DNA from: Megasphaera paucivorans
GTDB taxonomy: Bacteria > Bacillota > Negativicutes > Veillonellales > Megasphaeraceae
Direction: 5' to 3'
Assembly (NCBI RefSeq): GCF_900103535.1
Contig: NZ_FNHQ01000002.1
Coordinates: 1 to 64,000, forward strand
DNA: 64,000 bases
In this document: positions 2,863 to 61,096 of the stretch, one piece after another
How the letters are laid out: each line of letters begins with the position of its first letter
Position numbering within the stretch: position 1 is the first letter of the stretch
Program-made: the position numbers and the translations under genes
Notes under the pieces: generated by a model
The model's input: the letters and a program-made list of their open reading frames with translations, nothing else
What the model was told of the DNA's origin: nothing
Databases searched by the model: none

Positions 2863-5040
2863 ATGAAAATCATAAAACGTAATGGATCAGAAGAAGTTTT
2901 CAACGTAGACAAGATTATTAAAGCTATCGGCAAGGCCAATATTGTTGTAGATGAAAAACACCGATTAAATGCTTTGCAAATCAGCAGTATTGCTGAAAAG
3001 GTAGAAAATATATGCAGTGAAATACCACATGCGATGAATGTAGAAGACATACAGGATTATGTGGAAAATGGAATCATGGGATACAATGCGTTTGAAGTTG
3101 CACGAAAATATATTACATACCGATATGTTCATTCTCTTATACGGACTAGAAATACGACAGACGATAAAATATTGAGTTTGATTGAATGCAATAATGAAGA
3201 TGTAAAACAAGAAAATTCTAATAAAAATCCTGCGGTTAATAGTGTGCAGCGTGATTATATGGCGGGAGAAGTGAGCAAGGATCTAACGATGCGGCTGATG
3301 CTTCCTAAAGATATAGTAAAAGCCCATGAAGAAGGCATGATACATTTTCATGATGCCGATTACTATGCCCAGCACATGCACAACTGTGATTTGGTCAATT
3401 TAGAAGACATGCTGCAACAGGGAACGGTTATAAGTGGTACACGAATTGATCGTCCGCATAGCTTTTCTACAGCTTGCAATATTGCGACGCAGATTATTGC
3501 TCAAGTAGCTAGCAGTCAATATGGCGGACAGAGTATCAGCTTAACTCATTTGGCACCTTTTGTGGATGTCAGCAGACAAAAAATTCGCAGAAGTGTTGTG
3601 GAAGAATGTATGACACTGGGAGTAGAGACCTCTGCTGAGAAAATAGAAAAAGTTGTTCATAAGAGGCTTCTTGAAGAAATTAGCAGGGGGGTGCAGACTA
3701 TACAGTATCAGGTGGTTACCTTGATGACCACCAATGGACAAGCGCCTTTTGTTACCGTGTTTATGTATTTGAATGAAGCACGAAATGAACGGGAAAAAGA
3801 AGATTTGGCAATGATTATCGAAGAAATGCTGCAGCAACGTATTCAAGGAGTGAAAAATGAAAGCGGTGTGTGGATTACGCCGGCGTTTCCCAAATTGATA
3901 TATGTATTGGAGCCAGATAACTTGAAAAAAGGGACACCTTATTTTTATTTAACGGAATTAGCTGCAAAATGTACTGCGAAAAGAATGGTGCCAGACTATA
4001 TAAGTGAAAAAATTATGCTTCAAAATAAAGTCGATAAAAACGGAGACGGTCATTGTTATACTTGCATGGGATGCCGGAGTTTTCTTACCCCTTATGTAGA
4101 TCCCAAAACGAATAAGGCGAAATACTATGGGCGGTTTAATCAAGGGGTTGTTACGATTAACTTGGTGGATGCAGCGTTGTCCAGTAAGGGAGATATGGAA
4201 TCTTTTTGGAAAATTTTTGACGAACGGCTAGAACTATGTCATAAAGCATTGATGTGCCGTCATAATCGTCTGAAAGGTACGAAGTCGGATGCGGCACCTA
4301 TTCTTTGGCAATATGGAGCATTAGCTCGTTTAGATAAAGGAGAAACTATCGATGAACTGCTATATGGCGGTTATTCGACTATTAGTTTGGGTTATGCCGG
4401 CTTATATGAATGTACGAAATATATGACGGGCAAATCTCATACCGATCCGCAAGCTACACCGTTTGCATTAGCGGTTATGCAGCATATGAATGATAAATGT
4501 ACAGCATGGAAAGCAGAACATAATATTGATTTTAGTTTATATGGGACTCCTTTAGAATCGACGACGTATAAATTTGCTAAATGTTTACAGAAACGATTTG
4601 GTGTTATCAAAGGGGTAACTGATAAAAATTATATTACCAACAGTTATCACATGCATGTAATGGAACCGGTGGATGCTTTTACAAAACTTAAATTTGAAAG
4701 CCAATTTCAACGACTTTCACCAGGGGGTGCTATCAGTTATGTTGAAGTACCGGATATGCAGCATAATCTGGAAGCCGTTGAAGCGCTGCAGCAGTTTATA
4801 TATGAAAATATTATGTATGCTGAACTGAATACAAAATCCGATTATTGCCAAGAATGTGGGTTTGATGGAGAAATCCAAATTGTTGAAAGTGATGGAAAAC
4901 TTGTATGGGAATGTCCAAAATGCGGAAATCGGGATCAGAATAAATTAAATGTGGCACGGCGGACGTGTGGGTATATTGGGACTCAATTCTGGAATCAAGG
5001 AAGAACCGAAGAAATTAAGGATAGAGTCATGCATTTGTAG
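2863..5040 (+). CDS. nrdD: Anaerobic (class III) ribonucleoside-triphosphate reductase
   Basis: NrdD reduces ribonucleoside triphosphates to deoxyribonucleotides using a glycyl radical and supplies DNA precursors without oxygen. The 725-residue product has an N-terminal ATP-cone (about 1-95, starting MKIIKRNGSEEVF) for allosteric control. It also has the catalytic barrel with a CYTCMGCRSF cysteine group, a C-terminal zinc site of two CxxC pairs (about 662/665 and 684/687), and the radical motif RRTCGYIG with Gly near 703. The ATG at 2863 follows GGAGGG; the TTG 15 bases earlier overlaps that ribosome site and is rejected. nrdG follows after 9 bases, so the two are one operon. NrdR-like boxes lie upstream. 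Confidence 0.97.
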   Translation: MKIIKRNGSEEVFNVDKIIKAIGKANIVVDEKHRLNALQISSIAEKVENICSEIPHAMNVEDIQDYVENGIMGYNAFEVARKYITYRYVHSLIRTRNTTDDKILSLIECNNEDVKQENSNKNPAVNSVQRDYMAGEVSKDLTMRLMLPKDIVKAHEEGMIHFHDADYYAQHMHNCDLVNLEDMLQQGTVISGTRIDRPHSFSTACNIATQIIAQVASSQYGGQSISLTHLAPFVDVSRQKIRRSVVEECMTLGVETSAEKIEKVVHKRLLEEISRGVQTIQYQVVTLMTTNGQAPFVTVFMYLNEARNEREKEDLAMIIEEMLQQRIQGVKNESGVWITPAFPKLIYVLEPDNLKKGTPYFYLTELAAKCTAKRMVPDYISEKIMLQNKVDKNGDGHCYTCMGCRSFLTPYVDPKTNKAKYYGRFNQGVVTINLVDAALSSKGDMESFWKIFDERLELCHKALMCRHNRLKGTKSDAAPILWQYGALARLDKGETIDELLYGGYSTISLGYAGLYECTKYMTGKSHTDPQATPFALAVMQHMNDKCTAWKAEHNIDFSLYGTPLESTTYKFAKCLQKRFGVIKGVTDKNYITNSYHMHVMEPVDAFTKLKFESQFQRLSPGGAISYVEVPDMQHNLEAVEALQQFIYENIMYAELNTKSDYCQECGFDGEIQIVESDGKLVWECPKCGNRDQNKLNVARRTCGYIGTQFWNQGRTEEIKDRVMHL

Positions 5041-5049
5041 GAGAAAAAA

Positions 5050-5535
5050 ATGAATTATGCGAATATCAAGTTTTATGACATTGCCGATGGTCCGGGCGTT
5101 CGGGTAAGCCTTTTTGTTTCTGGATGCACACATCATTGTAAAGGATGTTTTAACCCGGAAGCTTGGAGTTTTGAGTATGGGGAACCTTTTACAGAGGCTG
5201 TACAACAAAAGATTATAACGGCTATTGCACCGGAATATATCAGTGGACTTACTTTGTTGGGAGGTGAACCGATGGAACCTTGTCATCAAAAAGCATTGGT
5301 AAAATTTCTTGATAAAGTAAAAGAAGCGTATCCTGATAAAACGATTTGGTGTTATACAGGCTATACGTATCCGGAGGATTTTAAAGACGGAGGCAAGGCG
5401 TATAGTGAGGTTACAAAGAAAATGTTGTCGTATATTGATACGATTGTCGATGGAGAATTCAAGGAAGAACTGAAAGATATATCTCTGCAATTCAGAGGTT
5501 CCAGCAACCAGCGTATATTGCAGCTTAAAGAATAA
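5050..5535 (+). CDS. nrdG: Anaerobic ribonucleotide reductase activating protein (radical SAM)
   Basis: NrdG is the radical SAM activase that abstracts hydrogen from the NrdD glycine. The 161-residue product carries the cluster motif CTHHCKGC (Cys-x3-Cys-x2-Cys, residues 26-33) that holds the 4Fe-4S centre, and LLGGEPME, the GGE motif that binds S-adenosylmethionine. Its length is normal for the family. It begins 9 bases after nrdD with AGGAG just before the start, and a terminator follows it. Confidence 0.96.
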   Translation: MNYANIKFYDIADGPGVRVSLFVSGCTHHCKGCFNPEAWSFEYGEPFTEAVQQKIITAIAPEYISGLTLLGGEPMEPCHQKALVKFLDKVKEAYPDKTIWCYTGYTYPEDFKDGGKAYSEVTKKMLSYIDTIVDGEFKEELKDISLQFRGSSNQRILQLKE

Positions 5536-5563
5536 AGTAAAATATTTCATACCTAAATGGTGG

Positions 5564-5616
5564 ACGGCTTTCTCATATAACAGATAAAAATCTAATGTAT
5601 GGGAGAGCCGTTTTTT
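5564..5616 (+). terminator. Intrinsic terminator of the nrdDG operon
   Basis: A 14-bp stem with two G:U pairs (ACGGCTTTCTCATA with TATGGGAGAGCCGT) is followed by six T residues, 28 bases after the nrdG stop. Confidence 0.8.
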
Positions 5617-5737
5617 AGGAAAAATAAAGGTTTGTTTTGAAGAAAAATAATATACATATTTTTTCAGATAAAAAAGAATGTTATGCATTTAATATTAAAA
5701 ATAAATTATTATAAAAAAATTAAACAGTAATTCTAAG

Positions 5738-5766
5738 TTTACGCATTTATATAATAGTGGTATAAT
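5738..5766 (+). promoter_or_regulatory. Promoter for the hydroxyacid dehydrogenase gene
   Basis: TTTACG at 5738 and a perfect TATAAT at 5761 are separated by 17 bases. The start codon lies 55 bases downstream. Confidence 0.6.
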
Positions 5767-5821
5767 GAAAAATTATAATCCCTTAATGCGTATCACTTGC
5801 AAATAGATAGGAGAGATGAAT

Positions 5822-6784
5822 ATGATAGTAAAGAAAAGAACAGTCGGTGTCATTGGAATGGGACATGTAGGAGCTCATGTAGCATTTACGTTAGGAATGA
5901 TGGGAATTGCTGATGATATTCTTATTTGTGATAAAAATGAAGATAAACTTTGCAGTGAAAGACAGGATTTAATGGATGCCGTTCAATTTATGCCGCATCG
6001 CGTTACATATAGTATTGCCGGGTATGAAGAATTGGGCAATTGTGATGTTATCGTTAACTGCGTCGGCGATATTACACTGGTTGCTACGGGAAGCCGTGAT
6101 GATGAAATGAAGTTTACTGCGGCACAGGTGGCTGATTATATCCCGAAGGTAATGAAAGGCGGCTTTAACGGAATTTTTGTTAATATTACTAATCCCTGTG
6201 ATGTTATCACGTATCTTATTCAAAAATTGAGCGGTCTGCCGAAAAATCAGGTTCTTGGCACCGGTACCGGACTTGATACCTCCCGTTTAGTCAGTGCGAT
6301 TTCTCAGCAGACAGGAATAGAACAAAGCTCCTTTACTGCCTTTATGATGGGAGAACACGGCGATTCTCAAATGGTTCCATGGTCTTTTGTGTCTTTTTCG
6401 GGAAAATCATTAAACGAAATGGAACGAGATCCGAAGTTTACATTGAATCGTGAAGATACTAAAAATTTGGCGATCCGTGGCGGCTGGATTACTTACAAAG
6501 GCAAGCATTGTACAGAATACGGAATTTGTTCGACGGCAGCAAATATTGTAAAATCTATTTTGCATAACCAGGGAAAAGTGATGGCGGCCAGTGTGCCTTT
6601 CCAAGGAGAGTATGGAGAACAGGATATTTATTGTGGCTGTCCGGCTGTTATTGGAGCCAATGGAGTTCAGCATATTGTGGAATATCCTTTGCCGGCTGAT
6701 GAAATGGCCGAATTCAAAACCTGTTGTGCTAAGATTCGCGGGAATATAGCAAAGGCAGAAGACTTACTTGGAAAAGGAAAATAA
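5822..6784 (+). CDS. L-2-hydroxyisocaproate / L-lactate dehydrogenase family enzyme
   Basis: An NAD-dependent L-2-hydroxyacid dehydrogenase of the LDH/MDH superfamily, 320 residues, cytosolic. Visible features are the Rossmann loop GMGHVGAH, an acidic residue closing strand beta-2 (LICDKN, favouring NAD), substrate-binding Arg in GLDTSRL and the catalytic histidine in GEHGDSQ. The specificity loop reads GDITLVATGSRDDE. It has neither the Gln of classical LDH nor the Arg of MDH, and is longer, as in L-2-hydroxyisocaproate dehydrogenase, so a bulkier 2-oxoacid is possible. The second ATG (5822) is chosen because AGGAG is only 2 bases from the first. It has its own promoter. Confidence 0.85.
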   Translation: MIVKKRTVGVIGMGHVGAHVAFTLGMMGIADDILICDKNEDKLCSERQDLMDAVQFMPHRVTYSIAGYEELGNCDVIVNCVGDITLVATGSRDDEMKFTAAQVADYIPKVMKGGFNGIFVNITNPCDVITYLIQKLSGLPKNQVLGTGTGLDTSRLVSAISQQTGIEQSSFTAFMMGEHGDSQMVPWSFVSFSGKSLNEMERDPKFTLNREDTKNLAIRGGWITYKGKHCTEYGICSTAANIVKSILHNQGKVMAASVPFQGEYGEQDIYCGCPAVIGANGVQHIVEYPLPADEMAEFKTCCAKIRGNIAKAEDLLGKGK

Positions 6785-6905
6785 TAAGAACACAGAAGTT
6801 GAATGCGGTGGAAACTATATAAGAACTGCTGTATAGAAAAATGAAGAAATATAATGGATATCCATGTAATAAAGCTTCTCTGTATATGAGAACTGGAAAT
6901 AGAAC

Positions 6906-6934
6906 TTGATTTATCAATATATCTATGATAAAAT
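6906..6934 (+). promoter_or_regulatory. Promoter of the tRNA-Ala gene
   Basis: TTGATT at 6906 and TAAAAT at 6929 are 17 bases apart. The mature tRNA begins 38 bases after the -10 box. Confidence 0.5.
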
Positions 6935-6971
6935 ATCTAAGCAAGTTCAATTTTGGACTTACTTATTATAT

Positions 6972-7047
<76 letters not shown>

Positions 7048-7066
7048 TAGATACATAACGGCTTGG

Positions 7067-7095
7067 ACTCATGGCATGTTGTCATGAGTTTTTTT
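7067..7095 (+). terminator. Terminator of the tRNA gene
   Basis: ACTCATG (7067-7073) pairs with CATGAGT (7083-7089), followed by a T run. Confidence 0.75.
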
Positions 7096-7155
7096 ATATG
7101 TTACTATTTTGTATAAATACTATGCCGTATAAAATACACATTACAGGAGAATATT

Positions 7156-7926
7156 ATGGATTATGAAAAAATCATTCGGGTTGTTCAGACAACTCGACCG
7201 TTTTTTGTAGATGATACAAGAGAAATTAAAGTAACTGTTAAAGGAAGATCTGATTTTGTGACACAGATTGATGTGGCTGTTCAGGAGTATTTGCGTCAGG
7301 AATTATATCGGCTGGATCCCCAGACTATTTTGATTGCTGAGGAACAGAAACGTATTTACATTAAGCCGGATACCAGCTATTGGATACTGGATCCGATTGA
7401 CGGTACACAAAATTTTATTCGTCATGTGGGGCTAAGTGCGGTGTCGTTAGCTTATTATAATAAAAAGGATTTGCAATTTGGAGTTATTTATAATCCATTT
7501 ACGGAGGAAACTTTTTATGCTGTTCGCGGACAAGGGGCTTTTCTAAATGGACGAGCGATTCATGTTACAGAAAATAAAGTTTTAGAAAAATCTCTTATGG
7601 CAATCGGGACATCTCCATATGATCGGCAGTTTATTCCAAAAAATTGGGATGTATTCCAAAAGGTATATTGCCGTTGTTTAGATGTTCGTCGTTCAGGCAG
7701 TGCCGCTTTAGATTTGGCATACGTAGCAGCGGGACGATATGATGGTTATTTTGAACGAAATTTAAAGCCTTGGGATATGGCGGCGGGAATTATATTAGTG
7801 CAGGAAGCGGGCGGACGTGTAAGCGATTATACCGGTAAAGAGATACAGGTTGATTGCAATGCGGATATTTGTGCTGCGAATGGATTTATTAATGAAGAGT
7901 TGCTACGTATAATTGGGGAAAAATAA
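7156..7926 (+). CDS. Inositol monophosphatase family protein (SuhB/CysQ-like)
   Basis: A metal-dependent phosphatase of the inositol monophosphatase superfamily, 256 residues, cytosolic. The magnesium-binding motifs are all present: DFVTQIDVA (about 36-44), LIAEEQ (about 63-68), WILDPIDGTQNF (about 78-89) and KPWDMAAG (about 197-204). Members act on inositol-1-phosphate, sugar phosphates or 3'(2'),5'-bisphosphate nucleotides, and sequence alone does not settle which applies here. The gene has AGGAG ahead of its start and appears to be transcribed alone. Confidence 0.9.
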   Translation: MDYEKIIRVVQTTRPFFVDDTREIKVTVKGRSDFVTQIDVAVQEYLRQELYRLDPQTILIAEEQKRIYIKPDTSYWILDPIDGTQNFIRHVGLSAVSLAYYNKKDLQFGVIYNPFTEETFYAVRGQGAFLNGRAIHVTENKVLEKSLMAIGTSPYDRQFIPKNWDVFQKVYCRCLDVRRSGSAALDLAYVAAGRYDGYFERNLKPWDMAAGIILVQEAGGRVSDYTGKEIQVDCNADICAANGFINEELLRIIGEK

Positions 7927-8019
7927 GAACAACAAGAAAATGCTTACAGAATACAGGTAAGCAGAGAAGACCCATATACAATGATGATTAATATGTATAA
8001 TTAAAATAACAAAAAGGTA

Positions 8020-49236: not shown

Positions 49237-49335
49237 ATGAAAATCGTTTCTTTTATGGTTAAGGGTTCGTTATCGGTATTTGTGTTTGCTGTAGGGGCCT
49301 GTTTGTTAAAACGCAAATCGGAGGATTTAAAATGA
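49237..49335 (+). CDS. Micro-ORF, lipoprotein-like 32 aa peptide before mod
   Basis: The frame reads MKIVSFMVKGSLSVFVFAVG, then ACLLKRKSEDLK. It has a basic start, a hydrophobic stretch and a VGAC sequence like a lipobox, then a charged end. Its TGA overlaps the ATG of the methyltransferase gene. The upstream ribosome site is weak. It may be a true small membrane peptide, a coupling leader, or chance. Confidence 0.3.
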   Translation: MKIVSFMVKGSLSVFVFAVGACLLKRKSEDLK

Positions 49336-51362
49336 TAAAAGATATTATTGAAGCAAATGAAGCTGTACTCCCAAACAGTAAAGAAATGACGGTATTAAAA
49401 GAATATTTTCCATCATGCTTTAAAGCAGATGGTTCTTTTGATATGTATCGTTTTTCTGAATTTTTAAAAGATAAAATTGATATTTCACATGAAGGTTATG
49501 AATTGAAGTTTTTGGGAAAAAACTATGCTAAAATGCTTGCTTCTCTTGATACCGAAACTGTCATTATTCCAGACGAAGCACACAACTCACTTCCTGAAAA
49601 TATAGACAGCGAGAATGTGTATATTAGTGGAGATAACCTTGATGGTTTAAAACATTTATTAAAATCCTATGCTGGACATATTAAATGCATCTACATAGAC
49701 CCTCCATACAACACAGGTTCTGATGGGTTTGTTTATAATGATAAGTTCAATTTCACAATTGATGACTTGGTTGAAAAATTGAGCATTGACAAAGAACAGG
49801 CCCAGCGTATTCTTGACTTAACCAACAGAGGAAGTGCATCTCATTCTGCTTGGCTTATGTTTATGTATCCTCGATTACAATTGGCTAAAGATTTGTTGGA
49901 TATAGACGGTGTGATATTTATTTCGATAGATGATAATGAACAAGGTAATTTAAAGCTTTTAGGTGATGATATTTTTAGTGAAACAAACTTTGTAGCACAG
50001 TTGGTTTGGGAGAAGAAAAAGAAAGGTAGTTACTTAGCTAATAGTGTTACAAATATTAAAGAATATGTTTTGGTTTATGCCAAGCGAAAAGAAAAATTTG
50101 ATGGTTTAATTGGTGAGATTAATAGTAAGGAAGAAACATATCCTTGTGTTAATGCTTCAAATGGCAGAGATGTTCGGATTATTCGGGCAGGGATAGAAAG
50201 CAGATATCGAGAGCCAAATTATAAAATGAATGCTGGCAATATTATATCTGATACGACAATGAGTCTTCTACTTAAGTCTGATTTGATAATTAAAAACGGT
50301 GTATTAGCACAAGAACTAAAAATTGAAGGAAACTGGCGATACGGGCAAGATGCAATGACTGAGTATGCAAAAAATAAAGAATTATACATTACTCGGGATT
50401 TATATTTGAGAAGAATTGTAAAAGAACCAAGATATAAAGGTCTAAAGGATTTGTTATTACGTGTTGGCGATAATGATACATCAGGGTATTCTTACGCAGT
50501 AGATAATACAAATCTACAAAAAAATGGATGGGGTTCTAATGAAGATGCCGATGAAGAGCAGCGGCTTTTGTTTGGAGAACAGTCATTAATGAGTTACCCA
50601 AAACCTGTATTGCTGATAATGAAACTTTTATCTTGTTTACAAAAAGACGAATTGACAGTTGTAGATTTCTTCTCTGGCTCCGCAACAACTGCTGAAGCCA
50701 CAATGAGATTAAATACCTTAGGTAAAAAAGTTAGAACAATTTCTATTCAATTACCAGAAAACTTGGATATCAAGTATGAAACATCAACTGGAGACGATAA
50801 AACAAACGCAAAAAAACTTATAAAATTTTTAGAGAAGAATAATCGTCCACATACATTAGACTATCTAGGCATTGAAAGGCTTATTCGTGCATCAAAGAAA
50901 ATTCATGAAGAAAATCCGGACACAACTGCTGACCTTGGTTTCAAACATTACACATTACACGAAGTAAGTCAAACGACTCTTGATAAAATTGAGAAGTTTG
51001 ATAATAGTGGTTTTATCACTGATACATCTATATATGATGAATTTGGCACTGCTACGGTTCTCACAACATGGCTAGTACACGATAATTATGGGTTTGTAAA
51101 CAACTGTAAAATGATTGACTTTGCAGGATATACAGCATATTGGTGTGAAAACCACCTATATTTTATCAAGCCGGGTCTTACTGAAGAAGCAATTAAGTCG
51201 GTTATTGAAAAATACAATACTGATGGTAGTTTCAACCCACAAAATATGGTGTTATTTGGATATAGTTTTAATTATGTTGAAATGGAAAACTTGAAGACAA
51301 ATGTGAAAATTTTACGGGATTCTGAGAAGAACTTGAAAATAAATATCGATACTAGATACTAA
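49332..51362 (+). CDS. Type III restriction-modification methyltransferase (Mod)
   Basis: 676 residues, beta-class N6-adenine methyltransferase. The catalytic motif IV is DPPYNTGS (Asp 123). A variable target recognition part lies in the centre and the SAM-binding motif I is DFFSGSATTAEA (about 443-454), the order typical of Mod subunits. GGAGG lies before the ATG. Mod recognises the asymmetric site and methylates one strand; with Res it forms the restriction complex. The DNA is visibly more AT-rich than the phage replication genes. Confidence 0.93.
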   Translation: MIKDIIEANEAVLPNSKEMTVLKEYFPSCFKADGSFDMYRFSEFLKDKIDISHEGYELKFLGKNYAKMLASLDTETVIIPDEAHNSLPENIDSENVYISGDNLDGLKHLLKSYAGHIKCIYIDPPYNTGSDGFVYNDKFNFTIDDLVEKLSIDKEQAQRILDLTNRGSASHSAWLMFMYPRLQLAKDLLDIDGVIFISIDDNEQGNLKLLGDDIFSETNFVAQLVWEKKKKGSYLANSVTNIKEYVLVYAKRKEKFDGLIGEINSKEETYPCVNASNGRDVRIIRAGIESRYREPNYKMNAGNIISDTTMSLLLKSDLIIKNGVLAQELKIEGNWRYGQDAMTEYAKNKELYITRDLYLRRIVKEPRYKGLKDLLLRVGDNDTSGYSYAVDNTNLQKNGWGSNEDADEEQRLLFGEQSLMSYPKPVLLIMKLLSCLQKDELTVVDFFSGSATTAEATMRLNTLGKKVRTISIQLPENLDIKYETSTGDDKTNAKKLIKFLEKNNRPHTLDYLGIERLIRASKKIHEENPDTTADLGFKHYTLHEVSQTTLDKIEKFDNSGFITDTSIYDEFGTATVLTTWLVHDNYGFVNNCKMIDFAGYTAYWCENHLYFIKPGLTEEAIKSVIEKYNTDGSFNPQNMVLFGYSFNYVEMENLKTNVKILRDSEKNLKINIDTRY

Positions 51363-51366
51363 GGGG

Positions 51367-54333
51367 ATGCAGATTTTGGAACTAATACTTGAACGACAAT
51401 TAGAACATCAGCAAAAAGCTGTTGATGCTATTACATCTGCACTTGATGGGATTACAATGATTAAACCACATTTTGCATACGAGAATCCTTTATTTGATAG
51501 AGAAGAACAATGTCTTATTCATAATTTAGAAGAGGTTCAGAAAAATATACGCACTGATTACTGTGGCTGCCGTGATGAGGGAAATTATCTTAACCTTGAT
51601 ATCAAAATGGAAACTGGAACAGGTAAAACCTATGTTTATACACAGACTATCTATGAGATGCATAAGAAGTTTGGCTTTAACAAATTTATTATTGCTGTTC
51701 CATCTCTCCCTATAAAAGAAGGAACGGCACAGTTTATTGGTGATAGCTATGTAAAACATCATTTTTCTGATACTTGTGGATACAATTGTGATATTGAATT
51801 GGGTGTTTTGGAGAGTCCAAAGAAAAAGAAAAAAGGATTTTTAGCTATGCCACCTGCCGTATGTGATTATGTAACAGGCTCATGCCAAAATTCTAATAAG
51901 ATTTATGTCTTGCTAGTGAATATGCAATTACTAACTAATAGTAATATCCTTACTCGATCAGACTACGATTATTTAGTTGAAGGCTTCTATAGACCATTTA
52001 ATGCTCTAAAAGCCACTAAACCTATTGTCATAATTGATGAACCACACCGCTTTGCACGAGATCAAAGAGCCTATAAAGCAATTGTCGAAGAATTATGTCC
52101 ACAGCTGATTATTCGCTATGGAGCAACGTTCCCGGATACTACTGTAGGGAAAGGCAGAAACAAGGCTACTTTTAAGGATTTCAATAACCTTGTGTACGAA
52201 TTAAATGCTTGTGATTCTTTTAATCATAATCTGATTAAGGGGGTGGCAAAGGAACATTTTGAACCACTATCCCAAAAGGAAGAAAAGGTAAAACTTCTAT
52301 CTGTAGAATCAAAGACTTCTGCAACTTTTCAGTTCAAGAGACGTGGTGAAGATACAAAAACATATATACTCACATCAGGAGATTCGTTGTCTATAATTGA
52401 TGCTGCTTTTGAAGGAATTACAATATCTGCTATTGGTAAAAATTTTATTGAACTTACTAATGGGCAAATTAAGTATAAAAGTGAGGAATTTAATACAGAT
52501 ATATATTCATCTTCTTATCAAGAACAGATGCTAAAATTGGCTATCGAAAGGCACTTTAAAACAGAACGCCAGAATTTTTCTGGCAGACAGTTCAAAATAA
52601 AAACATTGGCATTATTCTTTATTGACGATATCTCATCATACCGAGACTCTGATGATGAAAAAAAACCTTATTTAAAAGAGATGTTCGAAAGATTACTTCT
52701 TGAGAAGATTAATGATTTAATATCTAAATTGACAAACAATGAGCAAGAATATCGTGATTATCTTGAAGCAAGTAAGGCTGATATTGCAGCTTGTCATGCG
52801 GGCTACTTTGCACAGGATAACAGTGATTCAGATGAAGCAATTGCTTCTGAAGTGGCTGATATTCTTCACAATAAGAAAGAACTTATTTCCCTTCGTAGAG
52901 AAGATGGTTCATTTAATACCAGACGATTTCTTTTTTCAAAATGGACTCTTAAAGAAGGTTGGGACAATCCTAATGTGTTTACAATAGCAAAACTGCGTTC
53001 AAGTGGTAGTGAGAATAGCAAGTTACAAGAAGTTGGTCGTGGGTTGCGTCTTCCTGTTGATGAGAATGGTAATAGAATTTCCAACGAAGAGTTTAAGTTG
53101 AATTATATTGTTGATTTTACTGAGGCGGACTTTGCTCAAAAATTAGTTGATGAAATAAATGGTGAATTGCCTGAAAAATTGACTATTTCTGAAGAGCGGC
53201 TTAAGGAAGTAGCGGAGCAACGGAAAATTGACTATAATACGTTGTTTTTTGAGTTGGGTGCCAAGGGTTATATCAATATGAACAAGGAAATTATTCCGGA
53301 CAAGAGAGACGCTTTTTATGCTGATTATCCAGAATTTGCAAGTGGAGTTAGTAGCAATAAAGTCACAGATGTAAACAAGAATAAAAAAGGAGAAATTCAT
53401 GTTAGAAAAGCAGTATACACAGAATTAAAAACATTGTGGGAAAACATCAATCATAAATACTATTTATTTTTTGATAGAGATTTGACAAATGCAATACCAC
53501 AGTTATTACACGATATTTTAAGGAAAAATGATATTTTCGGTAATGTAACATTGTATAGCCACAGAGATGAAGTGGTGAATGATGGGAAAGCTATGATGAT
53601 TAGAAAAAACTCAGGTGTTTCCTATTCGATAAAGCGTCCTATACCATATAACGAATTTCTTAAACGTATTAGTCAACAGACTAGTATACCAATTCTTGAG
53701 ATTCATGCGGCTATGTGTGAACTTGCAAAAGAAAAAGAGAATGGTATCCCTGAAGAGTTTATTAATGAATATTCTGTGGCAAATATTGTATCGGCTTTTT
53801 CTGATTGGAGAATTGAACAGCTGCAGACACGATTTAAATATTCTCGTTCAAATCAACCAGTTACGGAAACCGCATTAACCTATAAGAATGGAACTCCTAG
53901 AGAGATAATCAAACAGGGAAATGTAGGAACAATGTTTGTAGAAGGCACACCTTCTGATAAATATTTATATGATAAAATAGCATTTGATTCTCCGCTAGAA
54001 AAAGACAATATTATGACTGATATTTCGGAGGTGGTTGTATATGGGAAAATTCCTCGTTCCAGTATTGCTATTCCTACTATAGTAGGTGAAAATTACAGTC
54101 CGGATTTTATGTATGTTGTAAAAAAAACAGATGGTACTAAAGAATTAAATATCGTTGTAGAAACAAAACTAGTTAAAAACAACGCAACCCTTAGAGATAC
54201 AGAAAAGGTAAAAATAAAATGTGCTGAAAAATTCTTCAATCAACTTACCCTTGATGGGTACAAAGTATCATTTCATACACAGCTGGAAAATAAAAAAGTT
54301 AAACAGATTATACAAGAAGTTATTGCAGAATGA
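51367..54333 (+). CDS. Type III restriction enzyme Res subunit
   Basis: 988 residues. The superfamily 2 ATPase has Walker A ETGTGKT (about 82-88), motif II IIDEPHRF (DEPH, about 223-228), TLKEGWDNPNVFTIAKL and QEVGRGLRLPVD (motif VI). The C-terminal nuclease reads YSPDFMYVV...NIVVETKLVKN, the PD...E-x-K site (about 911-934). It starts four bases after mod with AAGGGG upstream. The length is normal and no break is seen, so the system is probably active. Confidence 0.94.
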   Translation: MQILELILERQLEHQQKAVDAITSALDGITMIKPHFAYENPLFDREEQCLIHNLEEVQKNIRTDYCGCRDEGNYLNLDIKMETGTGKTYVYTQTIYEMHKKFGFNKFIIAVPSLPIKEGTAQFIGDSYVKHHFSDTCGYNCDIELGVLESPKKKKKGFLAMPPAVCDYVTGSCQNSNKIYVLLVNMQLLTNSNILTRSDYDYLVEGFYRPFNALKATKPIVIIDEPHRFARDQRAYKAIVEELCPQLIIRYGATFPDTTVGKGRNKATFKDFNNLVYELNACDSFNHNLIKGVAKEHFEPLSQKEEKVKLLSVESKTSATFQFKRRGEDTKTYILTSGDSLSIIDAAFEGITISAIGKNFIELTNGQIKYKSEEFNTDIYSSSYQEQMLKLAIERHFKTERQNFSGRQFKIKTLALFFIDDISSYRDSDDEKKPYLKEMFERLLLEKINDLISKLTNNEQEYRDYLEASKADIAACHAGYFAQDNSDSDEAIASEVADILHNKKELISLRREDGSFNTRRFLFSKWTLKEGWDNPNVFTIAKLRSSGSENSKLQEVGRGLRLPVDENGNRISNEEFKLNYIVDFTEADFAQKLVDEINGELPEKLTISEERLKEVAEQRKIDYNTLFFELGAKGYINMNKEIIPDKRDAFYADYPEFASGVSSNKVTDVNKNKKGEIHVRKAVYTELKTLWENINHKYYLFFDRDLTNAIPQLLHDILRKNDIFGNVTLYSHRDEVVNDGKAMMIRKNSGVSYSIKRPIPYNEFLKRISQQTSIPILEIHAAMCELAKEKENGIPEEFINEYSVANIVSAFSDWRIEQLQTRFKYSRSNQPVTETALTYKNGTPREIIKQGNVGTMFVEGTPSDKYLYDKIAFDSPLEKDNIMTDISEVVVYGKIPRSSIAIPTIVGENYSPDFMYVVKKTDGTKELNIVVETKLVKNNATLRDTEKVKIKCAEKFFNQLTLDGYKVSFHTQLENKKVKQIIQEVIAE

Positions 54334-55489: not shown

Positions 55490-56008
55490 ATGAAGCAAAT
55501 TTTTATAATGGCGGCTAGTTTTTTTTGTTTAGCTTTTTCGACGGCTTTTGCAACGGAATACCAATCTTACCATAGTGAAAGCAGTGGTTTTAACATCGAT
55601 GTTCCGGCGGAATTTCAATATTTACAGACAGAATCAGGTATGACGCAATTAACAGCAGGAGACCAGAAAACAGGAGTGCTTATGACTGTTAGAGTCAATC
55701 AAATTCGTAACGGGACGACGGTGGCAGAGCAGGAAGAACAACTGCAGGCAGCGCTTCCGACATTGGAACAGCGTTTAAAATCGCAGGGAGCGACGATGGA
55801 AAATTCCGGGATTGCAACAATAGCAAGTCATAAAGCTATTTATTTTTATTATACGATTAACAGAGCAGGGACTGATTATTATCAAGAACAGTACATCGTG
55901 CTGGGAAATAATACTATGTACAGCCTTGTTTTTACAGTGCCCGCTGCGGTGGAAAATCAATATAAGCCATTGTTTACGCATTCTATTTCATCTATGACGA
56001 TACAGTAG
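55490..56008 (+). CDS. Secreted protein with signal peptide (PsbP/DcrB-like fold possible)
   Basis: 172 residues. A signal peptide is clear (MKQIFIMAASFFCLAFSTAF, cleavage near ATE). The mature part, YHSESSGFNIDVPAEFQYLQ and YYQEQYIVLGNNTMYSLVFT, with a closing ..FTHSISSMTIQ, resembles the PsbP/DcrB-like fold of periplasmic or surface proteins that handle small ligands. The function is unknown. AAGGGGAG lies upstream. It is the first gene after the prophage. Confidence 0.75.
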   Translation: MKQIFIMAASFFCLAFSTAFATEYQSYHSESSGFNIDVPAEFQYLQTESGMTQLTAGDQKTGVLMTVRVNQIRNGTTVAEQEEQLQAALPTLEQRLKSQGATMENSGIATIASHKAIYFYYTINRAGTDYYQEQYIVLGNNTMYSLVFTVPAAVENQYKPLFTHSISSMTIQ

Positions 56009-56188: not shown

Positions 56189-57961
56189 TTGGAAAATTAT
56201 AAACCAGATAGGTTTTTACTTTATATGTATATTGTACTGGGTGTTACTATTGTGACTCTCTTTATGTTTTTGCGGCCTATAGATACGGATGATACCAGTC
56301 ATACTGTAAAAGCTATTGCCATGCAAGGGGTTTATCAGCGGATGTCTTCAGATGTGCCTATCCCGTTTCAGCAATTAAAAGATATTTCTATTGGGCCGGA
56401 TGATAATGAGCTCATTCTTCGCGGACATGTAAAACAAGATATTCCTAAAGATAAAAAAATTATGATGTATATCACCCGGTTGCAAGTACATATTCAACTG
56501 AATGGGAAGGATATTTATCATGAAGAGGGGGATGATTATACTTGGTGGGATTCTTTTGATAGTCCTGGCATTACTCCAAAAGATGAATTAGTGATACATT
56601 TACAGCGGGCAACCGACAGCAATTATCCCGAAGCCTTAGCGTTGTGGTTACGAAAATTCAGCAGTGGAGAAACCTATGCATTGCTACTTTATCAACTGCA
56701 GCGTAATGCTGCAAAAATTATTATCAGCAGCATGCTTTTGATTATTGGACTAGCACTCTTGTTCAGCATGGGTGTTCTACGGCTGTTTAAGATCGATATT
56801 TATGAACAGTTCTTTTCTTGCGCTATGCTGCTAATATCCGGGGCTGTATGCACCTTTATTGATTATGAATACATCACGTTATTGTTTCCTTATCCAGGGT
56901 TAATAAACATTATTGATTATTTGTCGCAAATGTTGATTTGTGAGTTTCTTCTTATTTATTTATCAACGTTTCTTAATAAAAAATCACATATTAAAACGGC
57001 CAACGTAATGATATTTTTATGGACACTATGTATTGTCGGATATTGTCTGTTTCAAAAAGGCCGGGGATCAGATGCCTTTTTATCTCCGGCATGGAGCATG
57101 CTGGTATTAGAAATGGTGTTCCTTATACGAGAATATAAAATGCATATGGAAAAACGTATTAAATATGTGGTTGTATCTGTGAGTGTGCTTACAGGATGCA
57201 CAATTATAGAAATTGTACACTATTCATTTGTTCATTTCTATTGGATTTATGTATTTCAGGCAGGATTGTTGTTTTTTACGATAGTGCAATGCATTATTGC
57301 GGGTGATTTTGTAAGGGAAAAAATGCAGCAAGCTTCTTTAGTGCAGGAAATGCAAGGGGAATTGGCGCAAAGCCGCATTCGTGTTATGTTAAGTCAAATC
57401 CAACCTCACTTTGTTTTTAATGTACTGAATGCTATTAGCGGACTTTGTTTGATTCATCCAGAAAAGGCCGATGATGCTATTATACAATTTTCTAATTACC
57501 TTAGAGCGAATATCAATTCCTTGCAAAGTCAAGGACTAGTCAATTTTGAAGAAGAGCTGAAGCATATTCGGTGCTACGTAGCCTTGGAACAGCTGCGTTT
57601 TGGGAATAAGATACACATGGTTTATGATATTGGCGCTGCAAATTTTTCGTTGCCGGCACTTACACTGGAACCACTTGTTGAAAATGCTGTTAAGCATGGA
57701 CTGCGGATTAAATCTCAAGGTGGCACAGTTACGCTGAAAACAGCAGAAAATATGAAAGAAATATGCATCATAATTGAAGATGACGGAGTGGGTTTTGATT
57801 GGGAGTCGCTGCAGAAGGATAGTCATGCATCTATTGGGATTATGAATGTCCGCAGCCGCTTGGAATACATGTTAAAAGCTAAAATGACGATTATAAGCGT
57901 AATTGGAAAAGGGACAAAGGTTATGATACAAATACCGAAGAAGGGGGATAGTCGGGTATGA
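56189..57961 (+). CDS. 7TMR-DISM sensor histidine kinase (LytS/His_kinase type)
   Basis: 590 residues. One membrane helix (about 10-27) leads to an extracytoplasmic domain of about 140 residues with jelly-roll-like 7TMR-DISM features (LQVHIQLNGKDIYHEEGDDY), then seven membrane helices (about 172-385). The kinase part has QIQPHFVFNVLNAIS (phosphorylated His about 407) and ALTLEPLVENAVKHGLRI with a DDGVGF G-box. The start is TTG, 9 bases after AGGAGGG. The extracytoplasmic ligand is unknown, probably a small molecule. It overlaps the response regulator by four bases. Confidence 0.9.
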   Translation: MENYKPDRFLLYMYIVLGVTIVTLFMFLRPIDTDDTSHTVKAIAMQGVYQRMSSDVPIPFQQLKDISIGPDDNELILRGHVKQDIPKDKKIMMYITRLQVHIQLNGKDIYHEEGDDYTWWDSFDSPGITPKDELVIHLQRATDSNYPEALALWLRKFSSGETYALLLYQLQRNAAKIIISSMLLIIGLALLFSMGVLRLFKIDIYEQFFSCAMLLISGAVCTFIDYEYITLLFPYPGLINIIDYLSQMLICEFLLIYLSTFLNKKSHIKTANVMIFLWTLCIVGYCLFQKGRGSDAFLSPAWSMLVLEMVFLIREYKMHMEKRIKYVVVSVSVLTGCTIIEIVHYSFVHFYWIYVFQAGLLFFTIVQCIIAGDFVREKMQQASLVQEMQGELAQSRIRVMLSQIQPHFVFNVLNAISGLCLIHPEKADDAIIQFSNYLRANINSLQSQGLVNFEEELKHIRCYVALEQLRFGNKIHMVYDIGAANFSLPALTLEPLVENAVKHGLRIKSQGGTVTLKTAENMKEICIIIEDDGVGFDWESLQKDSHASIGIMNVRSRLEYMLKAKMTIISVIGKGTKVMIQIPKKGDSRV

Positions 57962-58758
57962 ACATTATATATGTAGATGATGAAGTTGCTGCTGTTGAAA
58001 AATTTGAATATATCATTCATACACTGGATCATGTTACCACCTTGAAAACGTTTACAGAGGCGGCTCCGGCACAAGAATATGCAGAACAGCATACGATAGA
58101 TATTGCTTTTCTTGATATTGAGATGCCGGGAATACGGGGACTGGAATTGGCGAAAATATTGCGGAAAATCAACAGCAACACAAAAATTGTATTTTTGACG
58201 GCATATGATACATTTGCATTAGACGCATTTGATGCGGAAGCGGTTAGCTATATACTCAAGCCATATAATAAAGAATGCATCTGCCAAGCGATAGAAAAAG
58301 CGGAACAAATTATATATACACCGACGAAACAGGTATTTATACGAACATTGCCTTTTTTTGATGTATATGTGAATCATAAACTTCTCTATTTTAACAGTGA
58401 AAAAGCGAAAGAACTTTTGGCAGTGCTTGTTGATGCGGCTGGCGGCAGTGTAACGACAGAGCAAATTATAGGGCATCTTTGGGCTGATCGTCCATATGAT
58501 GCGGGAGCACAGGCACTCTGCCGTGTGACATACAAACGATTGAGAGAAATATTGAATATAGCCGGGATTGGCTTTATTTTGGCTTCAGGTACTGCGCAGC
58601 GCTTTGTTCATTCTGAATTTTATGAAAGTGATTATAAACGTTTGTTAACGGGGGACGAAGAAGTGATCGCTATCTATGATGGGCGATATATGGCACATTA
58701 TTATTGGGCAGAAGAAACGAATGCACGCATACAATCATATATTAACAGCTTGAAATAA
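57958..58758 (+). CDS. Response regulator with SARP/BTAD-like output domain
   Basis: 266 residues. The receiver has acidic pocket VDDE (7-9), phosphorylated Asp 53 in FLDIEMPG, Thr in LTAYD and Lys 101 in ILKPY. The output part is not LytTR, as is usual beside LytS-type kinases. TLPFFDVYVNHKLLYFNSEK, KELLAVLVDAAGGSVTTEQI, HLWADRPYDAGAQAL and CRVTYKRLREIL match the winged-helix plus BTAD arrangement of SARP regulators. SARPs activate promoters by binding direct repeats at -35. It is coupled to the kinase, and a terminator follows. Confidence 0.87.
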   Translation: MNIIYVDDEVAAVEKFEYIIHTLDHVTTLKTFTEAAPAQEYAEQHTIDIAFLDIEMPGIRGLELAKILRKINSNTKIVFLTAYDTFALDAFDAEAVSYILKPYNKECICQAIEKAEQIIYTPTKQVFIRTLPFFDVYVNHKLLYFNSEKAKELLAVLVDAAGGSVTTEQIIGHLWADRPYDAGAQALCRVTYKRLREILNIAGIGFILASGTAQRFVHSEFYESDYKRLLTGDEEVIAIYDGRYMAHYYWAEETNARIQSYINSLK

Positions 58759-58764
58759 ATAGGA

Positions 58765-58800
58765 ATGACTGGCATAAGTAATGTGGTGCCAGTCATTTTT
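58765..58800 (+). terminator. Terminator of the kinase-regulator operon
   Basis: GACTGGCA (58767-58774) and TGCCAGTC (58787-58794) form a perfect stem followed by ATTTTT. Confidence 0.85.
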
Positions 58801-58854
58801 GTTAGGTATGTTGAAAAAAGAATATATTTTTTTGAAAATATTTGTCTGGAAGTA

Positions 58855-58891
58855 AAAAGTTACGGAAAAGTTACGGCCTCTATAGTATACT
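58855..58891 (+). promoter_or_regulatory. Tandem 11-bp repeats and -10 box, probable SARP-type promoter
   Basis: AAAAGTTACGG occurs twice without gap (58855-58865 and 58866-58876), and TATACT (58886-58891) starts 9 bases after the second copy. No standard -35 is present. SARP regulators are known to bind direct repeats of 11-bp period that take the place of the -35 region, 8 or so bases from the -10. A SARP-like response regulator is encoded directly upstream. Confidence 0.65.
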
Positions 58892-58984
58892 AGTTACACA
58901 TTACATAAATGTATATTTTAAGATTGCCGTTTTTACTGATGTAATTAAAGCAAATAAACGACTTTGTCATGGGTGGAGGAATCA

Positions 58985-60238
58985 ATGGTAATGAAGCAGC
59001 AACCGGATCAATCAAGTAGTTTACAGGATATATGGGGATTTTCTTGTTTTTTGGAGACGCTTTGTAAAGATGGTTTTTATCATGAAGTAACCACAACAAC
59101 AAAGCCAGTAGGTCCTACAGTTACATATCATGATAAAGAATACATTAATTTTGCTAGTATTAATGTGTTAAATACGCATCAAGAACCTGATGTAATGAAA
59201 CATTTTTTACAAGCAGCGAAACAATATGGATTGGTTACTGGCGGTTCACGGGTTACTCAAGGAGTCAGCAGTGCGCATAAAGAGATGGAAGAAGAATTAA
59301 CTCGTATTACGGGAAAAGAACGTTCTATATCCTTTGCCAGCGGGTTATTGGCTAATATTGGCTTTATTAATGCAATGACTTGCAAATTTGATTTTAGTTC
59401 TACTTGCGGCATTAACAACAGTGATGCTGTATTCGTTCTTGATAGAGATTGTCACTGGAGTCTATGGAAAGCAGCATCACATTTGGAGTTTGGCAAACAG
59501 TTGTTTCCTTTTCGGCATAATGATCCCAAACATTTGGAAATTTTATTAAAACGTTTGTCTAAAACACATAAAAAGATTGTCGTTGTCTTTGAAAGCATTT
59601 ATTCTGCTGATGGATCCATTGCACCGATGAAAGAACTTTTAGATGCTTGTGAAAAGTATGGAGCGATCAGCTATGTGGATAATGCAAATGGCTTTATGTT
59701 TTATGGTCCGGAGCAGCGGTTATTTTCAGAAGAATTCAAACAAATGAACAGAGCTACCTTTGTCATGGTGTCATTTTCTAAAGCAGTAGGTATGGAAGGT
59801 GGGGCAATTTCCGGTCCTAAAGATATGATTACCATGTTTGAACTATTATCGGGAACTTCTCTGTTTACCGCAGCTATTCAGCCACCGACTGCCAGTACCA
59901 TTACCTATATTTTGCATAAACTGGAGAAACATCCGGAAATTATGGATCAATATTTGGAACGTTCGTTGAAACTACGTCAAGTTTTGGAAGAAAAGCATTT
60001 TCGTCTCAACGATACACCATCTTACATTATTTCTGTCATTATAGGAAATGACAAAAAAGCAGTTAAGGTATATGAGGCTTGTCTGGAAAATAATATTATG
60101 GTCGGTATGTTTCGGTATCCGGCTGTTAAACCGGGACATGCACTGATCCGCATTATGATGAATGCAGGACAGACAGATGAACAGCTTCAATGCCTTATTG
60201 CTTTTCTTGAAAAAATGAAAGATACGTATAAATTTTAG
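58985..60238 (+). CDS. Alpha-oxoamine synthase-like PLP enzyme, divergent
   Basis: 417 residues, fold type I PLP enzyme of the group containing 8-amino-7-oxononanoate synthase, KBL, serine palmitoyltransferase and the autoinducer synthase CqsA. It condenses an acyl-CoA with an amino acid. Seen are GGSRVTQGVSSAHKEMEEEL, DRDCHWSLW (PLP-stacking His 157), the PLP Asp in VDNANGF (232) and PLP-lysine VSFSKAVGMEGG (Lys 266). Where relatives have D-x-A/S-H, it has D-N-A-N, so His is replaced by Asn 235. No biotin genes are near. The ATG at 58985 follows GGAGG. A roughly 90-base leader and SARP-like repeats precede it. Confidence 0.82.
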   Translation: MVMKQQPDQSSSLQDIWGFSCFLETLCKDGFYHEVTTTTKPVGPTVTYHDKEYINFASINVLNTHQEPDVMKHFLQAAKQYGLVTGGSRVTQGVSSAHKEMEEELTRITGKERSISFASGLLANIGFINAMTCKFDFSSTCGINNSDAVFVLDRDCHWSLWKAASHLEFGKQLFPFRHNDPKHLEILLKRLSKTHKKIVVVFESIYSADGSIAPMKELLDACEKYGAISYVDNANGFMFYGPEQRLFSEEFKQMNRATFVMVSFSKAVGMEGGAISGPKDMITMFELLSGTSLFTAAIQPPTASTITYILHKLEKHPEIMDQYLERSLKLRQVLEEKHFRLNDTPSYIISVIIGNDKKAVKVYEACLENNIMVGMFRYPAVKPGHALIRIMMNAGQTDEQLQCLIAFLEKMKDTYKF

Positions 60239-60420: not shown

Positions 60421-60430
60421 GGTTTCGGTT

Positions 60431-61096
60431 GTACGCCCGGCATAGGCGCAGTATAATGGGTGAGAGTCGCGAGTGCCGGTTTAATAGTGCCACGCACATA
60501 ACCTAAGGCAAGGGGGCCATTGTGAGGTGGAATCTGAAGGAAGCCAGTACGAGGAGCACAGAAAACCGAATGGGCTGCCCACAAACGGATAGCGTGGAAC
60601 GGGAAAGATATGCGGGAGTGCCGAGTACCGGCTCTCCGGATGACAGAGAAAGAAACGGTGCTGGCGATTTTGATGGAACGCATACGGGACAAGGACAACC
60701 TAAACCACGCGAACAAACAGGTCAAACGAAACTATGGCGCGCTGGGCATAAACGGAATGACAGTCGAAGCGGCTCAGCCATAGCGGAAGGAACATAAAGA
60801 GGAACTCCTGCAACAGTTGCGGAAAGGATGAACCCAGTCCGGTACGACGCAAGAAAATCCCTAAACCAGAAGGCGGCGTACGACAACTGGGTATTCCCAT
60901 GATCATAGACCGGGTCACAGCAAGCACGTTCCATTACAAAGGAAACGCTCGCATTGGCCGGATAGTATGACTTCTCGAGCCAATACGAGCGATTACGAAA
61001 ACAGCACTTAAATAATTGAAACGCCGTATACCGAACGGTGTATATGGTGTTGTGAGAGGCCGGCCACCTCAACTAATAGATGCCATCCTGCTCGAT
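60431..61096 (+). pseudogene. Decayed group II intron with truncated reverse transcriptase
   Basis: The 5' end begins GTACGCCCGGCATAGGCGCA, close to the GTGYG start of group II introns. From ATG 60640 the reverse transcriptase reads RDKDNLNHANKQVKRNYGAL, then GINGMTVEAAQ, and is broken by TAG. After a frameshift it reads PVRRKKIPKPEGGVRQLGIP, MIIDRV. Then most of the protein is missing and only the C-terminal end SQYERLRKQHLNN remains. A domain V-like stretch (CGCCGTATACC to GAGAGGCCGG, about 61020-61063) and the end CTGCTCGAT follow. It cannot encode an active enzyme. Confidence 0.8.

Follow-up and report, generated by a model that had tools for sequence, protein, structure and literature searches.

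The alpha-oxoamine synthases BioF, Kbl, serine palmitoyltransferase (SPT), ALAS and CqsA/LqsA have in common a fold type, a pyridoxal phosphate (PLP) lysine and a carboxylate-binding region. Among sensor kinases, the Pro-His-Phe H-box is typical of the LytS type (PMC10653868), while among the small multidrug resistance (SMR) transporters Trp16 marks the Gdx (guanidinium exporter) subtype. One of its members, Gdx-Clo, is reported to transport guanidinyl cations that bear single hydrophobic substituents and to reject arginine and agmatine (PMC7695847). Here we analyze a locus of Megasphaera paucivorans in which a LytS-type kinase gene, a response regulator gene and an alpha-oxoamine synthase gene follow each other within a 64-kb stretch of DNA (contig NZ_FNHQ01000002.1, positions 1 to 64,000; hereafter the window). 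The initial annotation described the three genes as a self-contained sense-and-make circuit, possibly for quorum sensing. The present analysis shows that the conserved partner of the synthase is a Gdx-type SMR exporter and not the kinase and the regulator. The three genes of the window are the following:

56189 to 57961, plus strand: LytS-type sensor histidine kinase, intact open reading frame of 590 amino acids with a TTG start
57958 to 58758, plus strand: response regulator with an AlgR/LytR-like receiver, an OmpR/PhoB-type winged helix and a short helical C-terminal tail, intact open reading frame
58985 to 60238, plus strand: alpha-oxoamine synthase of an uncharacterised subfamily, intact open reading frame of 417 amino acids

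The linkage of these genes was surveyed in 380 genomes of the class, a genome being counted as a carrier of the synthase when it gave a match at E ≤ 1e-100. Nine of them carry it. The kinase and the regulator stand beside the synthase only in the genome of the window and in a sister genome of the same genus (G001/L016), where the order kinase, regulator, synthase is kept, about 5 kb align at 91%, and the kinase is 95% identical. The three-gene unit is therefore not a conserved circuit, being confined to this genus (two of the nine carriers), and the lack of conserved linkage, which the initial annotation had named as evidence against its reading, applies to the unit outside the genus. The other seven carriers are Propionispira raffinosivorans, P. 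arboris, Pectinatus frisingensis, P. haikarae, a third Pectinatus, the metagenome-assembled genome Megamonas sp. UBA1796 and a genome of another family (G075). All seven have an SMR gene directly upstream of the synthase on the same strand, separated from it by gaps of about 25-90 nt, and the remaining neighbours of these loci vary between genera.

The synthase-linked SMR proteins, of 104-107 amino acids, match PF00893 and carry E13, W16, S42, Y59 and W62, which is the Gdx pattern, and they are thus members of the Gdx subtype. They share these residues and this length with guanidinium exporters such as E. coli Gdx/SugE and Gdx-Clo, from which they differ in having an alpha-oxoamine synthase as partner and in that no guanidine riboswitch precedes the SMR-synthase genes at the eight loci scanned. 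No paper tying SMR transporters to oxoamine synthases was found in the literature searched. The genome of the window has one SMR gene, located on another contig (C12) and unlinked to the synthase. Compared with 300 class genomes, this SMR is closest to the synthase-linked ones (72, 72, 64 and 62% identity), the next SMR reaching 56% and the rest at most 52%, so that the synthase-type exporter is kept in the window's genus, but unlinked.

The third gene had been read as a PLP enzyme of the alpha-oxoamine synthase family, and the Aminotran_1_2 fold, the PLP lysine within SFSKAVG and the homology to solved enzymes of the superfamily all agree with this. Its catalytic lysine and carboxylate-binding arginine region align with SPT, and SPTs are also the nearest solved structures. 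Translation probably begins at the ATG at 58985, 5 nt after a GGAGG, the alternative TTG at 58964 being less likely. The enzyme lies under every NCBIfam cut-off considered, i.e., those for bioF, SPT, Kbl and the alpha-hydroxyketone (AHK) synthases of CqsA type, with 233 bits against 426 for bioF (TIGR00858), 198 against 500 for SPT and 135 against 428 for AHK synthase (NF005526). Membership among the CqsA/LqsA autoinducer synthases was rejected on the curated cut-off. In a tree with BioF, Kbl and one SPT, built with few outgroups and long branches and with CqsA left out, the 13 homologues, which come from Negativicutes, Ktedonosporobacter, Pseudomonas, Cupriavidus and Eleftheria, group in a single clade separate from the BioF, Kbl and SPT sequences. 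In all 13 an Asn replaces the pocket His (DDANGF or DNANGF versus DDAHG in BioF), the window's enzyme having VDNANGF where DEAHG is expected, and an extra segment of about 11 amino acids precedes the conserved DRDCHWSLWKAA. The separate clade, the scores below cut-off, the change of the DEAH His to Asn and the insertion set the subfamily apart from the alpha-oxoamine synthases named above.

The kinase matches PF06580 (His_kinase, E=1.3e-21) and the HATPase family PF02518 in the Pfam scan, and its H-box is Pro-His-Phe (H407), which makes it a LytS-type histidine kinase. Its hydropathy indicates one N-terminal helix, an extracytoplasmic region of about 140 amino acids and then about seven membrane helices. 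This layout is compatible with the 7TMR-DISM kinase of the initial annotation, but no 7TMR-DISM domain is found in Pfam even with the threshold relaxed to E=10, and the AlphaFold2 model of the kinase (predicted local distance difference test, pLDDT, 36) was not used; the term can hence stand as a description of the layout only. The regulator, whose open reading frame overlaps that of the kinase by 4 nt, has a PF00072 receiver, and its AlphaFold2 model (pLDDT 89) predicts a winged-helix DNA-binding domain. The Foldseek matches of this model are OmpR/PhoB regulators, e.g., DrrB and VanR, and the predicted structure thus provides evidence of an OmpR/PhoB-type output. The earlier description of a Streptomyces antibiotic regulatory protein (SARP)/BTAD-like regulator in place of LytTR holds in that the output is a winged helix and not LytTR. 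However, no BTAD was found by the Pfam scan, in the model or by Foldseek, about 45 helical residues remaining beyond the wing, and the label SARP is consequently too specific. Compared with LytS/LytTR systems such as BtsS/BtsR, the pair has the same kinase type (PF06580, Pro-His-Phe) and an AlgR-like receiver, while the OmpR/PhoB winged helix replaces LytTR and the kinase has an additional ectodomain. Elsewhere in the class the output half of the regulator has weak relatives only, which, where the context is readable, adjoin LytS-like kinases with no synthase there.

Between the regulator and the synthase lie the following elements:

58765 to 58796, plus strand: terminator-like inverted repeat ATGACTGGCA/TGCCAGTCAT followed by a T-run, as read from the sequence
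58855 to 58865, plus strand: first copy of the 11-bp repeat AAAAGTTACGG
58866 to 58876, plus strand: second copy of AAAAGTTACGG, directly tandem to the first
58886 to 58891, plus strand: -10 element TATACT, after a gap of 9 nt from the repeats
58893 to 58899, plus strand: GTTACAC, a possible third half-site 3' of the -10 element

The terminator-like hairpin, which is also present with changes in the sister genome, separates the synthase from the regulator, and the synthase therefore appears to have a promoter of its own. No -35 element is seen at this promoter, its place being filled by the repeats. The two copies of AAAAGTTACGG are the sole perfect tandem repeat of period 9-13 across the window, they are not reached in any of 1000 dinucleotide-shuffled versions of the intergenic region, and the sister genome has the same 22 bp. 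The pattern GTTACGG-N4-GTTACGG occurs exactly once in each of the two genomes. The position of the repeats and their distance from the -10 element, as first annotated, are thus confirmed, and the LytS-type kinase and the non-LytTR regulator beside a synthase with activator-type promoter repeats are all kept in the sister genome. The tandem repeat is a real and strong candidate site, and the adjacent regulator is the natural candidate to bind it. SARP activators are similar in their winged-helix domain and in 11-bp-phased tandem repeats shortly upstream of the -10 element, at the -35 place; the differences here are the lack of a detected BTAD in the adjacent regulator and the heptamer GTTACGG. 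SARPs bind direct repeats located 8-9 bp before the -10 element, a geometry that the window's promoter shows. Pho-box promoters likewise have tandem 11-bp-phased repeats in the -35 place, and from these, too, the heptamer differs. A search for a regulon by pattern gave fewer near-matches (up to three mismatches) than a reversed control pattern, i.e., chance level. A related site with two mismatches, GTTACGTTATTGTTACGC, lies in the intergenic region ahead of an RND efflux operon (L126:3716-3733 and L127:3287-3304), without any difference between the two genomes. It may represent another target, but genome-wide two-mismatch sites are at chance level.

A promoter of the same spacing is found in Pectinatus. 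All three Pectinatus genomes retain the block TTTTCATATTAATTTCATATTA ahead of their SMR-synthase genes, with one mismatch in P. haikarae, while the remainder of these intergenic regions does not align. It can be read as heptamer-4-heptamer-9-(-10), which is the spacing of the window's promoter with a different heptamer. For two of these genomes the run of matches was reached by 0 and 2 of 1000 shuffles. The mismatch in P. haikarae interrupts the run, which 220 of 1000 shuffles reach there, a result that is not significant alone. Since the spacing is the same and the heptamers differ, OmpR/PhoB-type activation of the synthase module seems to employ different regulators in different genera.

On this basis we propose, with about even confidence, a make-and-export module for a cationic metabolite of amino-ketone type, which is under OmpR-type activation and in the window's genus came under the control of a local LytS-type system. 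In the condensation catalysed by the synthase, an acyl thioester would be joined to an amino acid, yielding a basic amino-ketone or a derivative, and the Gdx-type SMR would most likely export this product or a closely related cation. The two genes, unlinked in the window's genus, appear to be cotranscribed in Pectinatus, Propionispira, the Megamonas genome and one other genome. In the window's genus, the adjacent kinase and receiver/OmpR-type regulator would switch the synthase on, the regulator presumably binding the two 11-bp repeats at the -35 position as an activator, and the kinase, regulator and repeats are likely a genus-specific switch of the module. The observations behind this proposal are the gene families, the linkage to the exporter, which is exclusive within the class sample, the conservation and geometry of the repeats, and the lack, in the window's genus, of a route to biotin. 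The 7-4-7-9-(-10) geometry, common to the window's promoter and the three Pectinatus operon promoters despite their different heptamers, supports it further.

Several points weigh against this proposal. Guanidinyl cations are the preferred substrates of the tested Gdx proteins, which do not accept arginine or agmatine (PMC7695847), so that a plain amino-ketone is no obvious substrate. The repeat of the synthase promoter is absent upstream of the SMR gene in the genome of the window, and in this genome the two genes need therefore not share their regulation. The placement of the synthase next to the two-component system may also be accidental and have simply persisted in two closely related species, and the change of the pocket His to Asn could mean an altered chemistry. 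Arginine as substrate of the synthase is a guess by analogy with other oxoamine synthases, and Gdx-Clo rejects arginine-like tails.

The alternative that we take most seriously, although it is unlikely, is that the repeats belong to another OmpR/PhoB-family regulator, e.g., PhoB of the phosphate-starvation response, the kinase/regulator pair being a mere neighbour with its own terminator. The terminator-like hairpin would fit this, the 7-4-7-9 geometry is a general one in this family, and the Pectinatus repeats TTTCATATTAATTTCATATTA, with no two-component system adjacent, appear similar to a Pho box. On the other hand, GTTACGG is unlike the Pho box, the exact pair occurs only at the synthase promoter in both genomes, and the order of the three genes is conserved in the sister genome. 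Less probable still is a quorum-sensing circuit of the CqsA/LqsA kind, as first suggested, in which an autoinducer of alpha-hydroxyketone type would be sensed by the adjacent kinase and the loop would close on the synthase promoter. The synthase does adjoin a membrane kinase in two genomes and belongs to the superfamily of CqsA, but its 135 bits with the AHK model fall below even its bioF and SPT scores, the kinase is not linked to it in the seven other carriers, and similar receiver/winged-helix systems occur in other Negativicutes without any synthase. A self-contained sense-and-make circuit is thus unsupported by conservation.

The remaining alternatives concern the enzyme itself. It is similarly improbable, or slightly more so, that it is an SPT-like enzyme which supplies the envelope with a sphingoid base, with an incidental link to the SMR gene: the nearest solved structures point in this direction, while the 198 bits against a cut-off of 500, the restriction to nine of 380 genomes, and the separate clade with the pocket His changed to Asn, in a tree with long branches and a single SPT sequence, argue against it. 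Least credible is a housekeeping BioF. The synthase is the sole bioF-like enzyme of the window's genome, and bioB is present; yet the 233 bits are far from the cut-off of 426, bioB has no bio neighbours, neither genome of the genus has bioD, and each of the seven other carriers has a separate bioF above cut-off besides this synthase. With no bioF above cut-off and no bioD in the window's genus, a role in biotin synthesis is very unlikely, and the reduction of the synthase to a biotin housekeeping enzyme, which the initial annotation had left as a way to overturn its reading, did not materialize.

The distant homologues have surroundings of their own. In Eleftheria terrae, the one distant match carried on a plasmid, the homologue heads a same-strand run of a methyltransferase, a GNAT gene and another SMR, the latter with Gly at position 16, a Qac-subtype pattern. 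The Ktedonosporobacter homologue adjoins a KAS-III gene, an AMP-ligase and a P450 in an apparent natural-product cluster, and these neighbours fit a biosynthetic role of the homologue. This locus (L018:2384-12148) also holds an aromatic amino acid lyase and an arginase-family gene. The Pseudomonas and Cupriavidus homologues (L019, L020 and L021, at about 4900-8000) lie near genes for a BaeSR-like two-component system and for an outer membrane protein of the MipA family, and in Cupriavidus RND-type (resistance-nodulation-division) efflux genes are also nearby.

The window differs from the sister genome on both sides of the three genes. An island of about 45 kb (10278-55448) lies between an alcohol dehydrogenase gene and the gene at 55490-56008, which are directly adjacent in the sister genome (empty site). 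It appears phage-like by its gene layout and contains a pair of genes resembling a type III restriction-modification system (49332-54333), a family assignment made by eye. About 670 bp 3' of the synthase (60421-61094) are also missing in the sister genome, and a sub-threshold group II intron match within them (60516-60579, E=0.13) suggests an intron remnant.

In summary, the uncharacterised enzyme subfamily gains a consistent partner, the Gdx-type SMR exporter, and a concrete promoter. Tentatively, and with a little less than even confidence, we see here an undescribed make-and-export pair of anaerobes including brewery spoilers, in which a subfamily of alpha-oxoamine synthases would produce a cationic secreted metabolite with a dedicated Gdx-type SMR pump, a LytS/OmpR-type sensor being set over the pair in one genus. 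If this is true, it would give a biosynthetic role to an SMR pump, a type otherwise taken to serve the efflux of waste or drugs. Should the pump export the product of the synthase, one case of an SMR purpose beyond guanidinium or antiseptics would be solved. As several of the named carriers belong to genera feared in breweries, the product can be sought in culturable strains.

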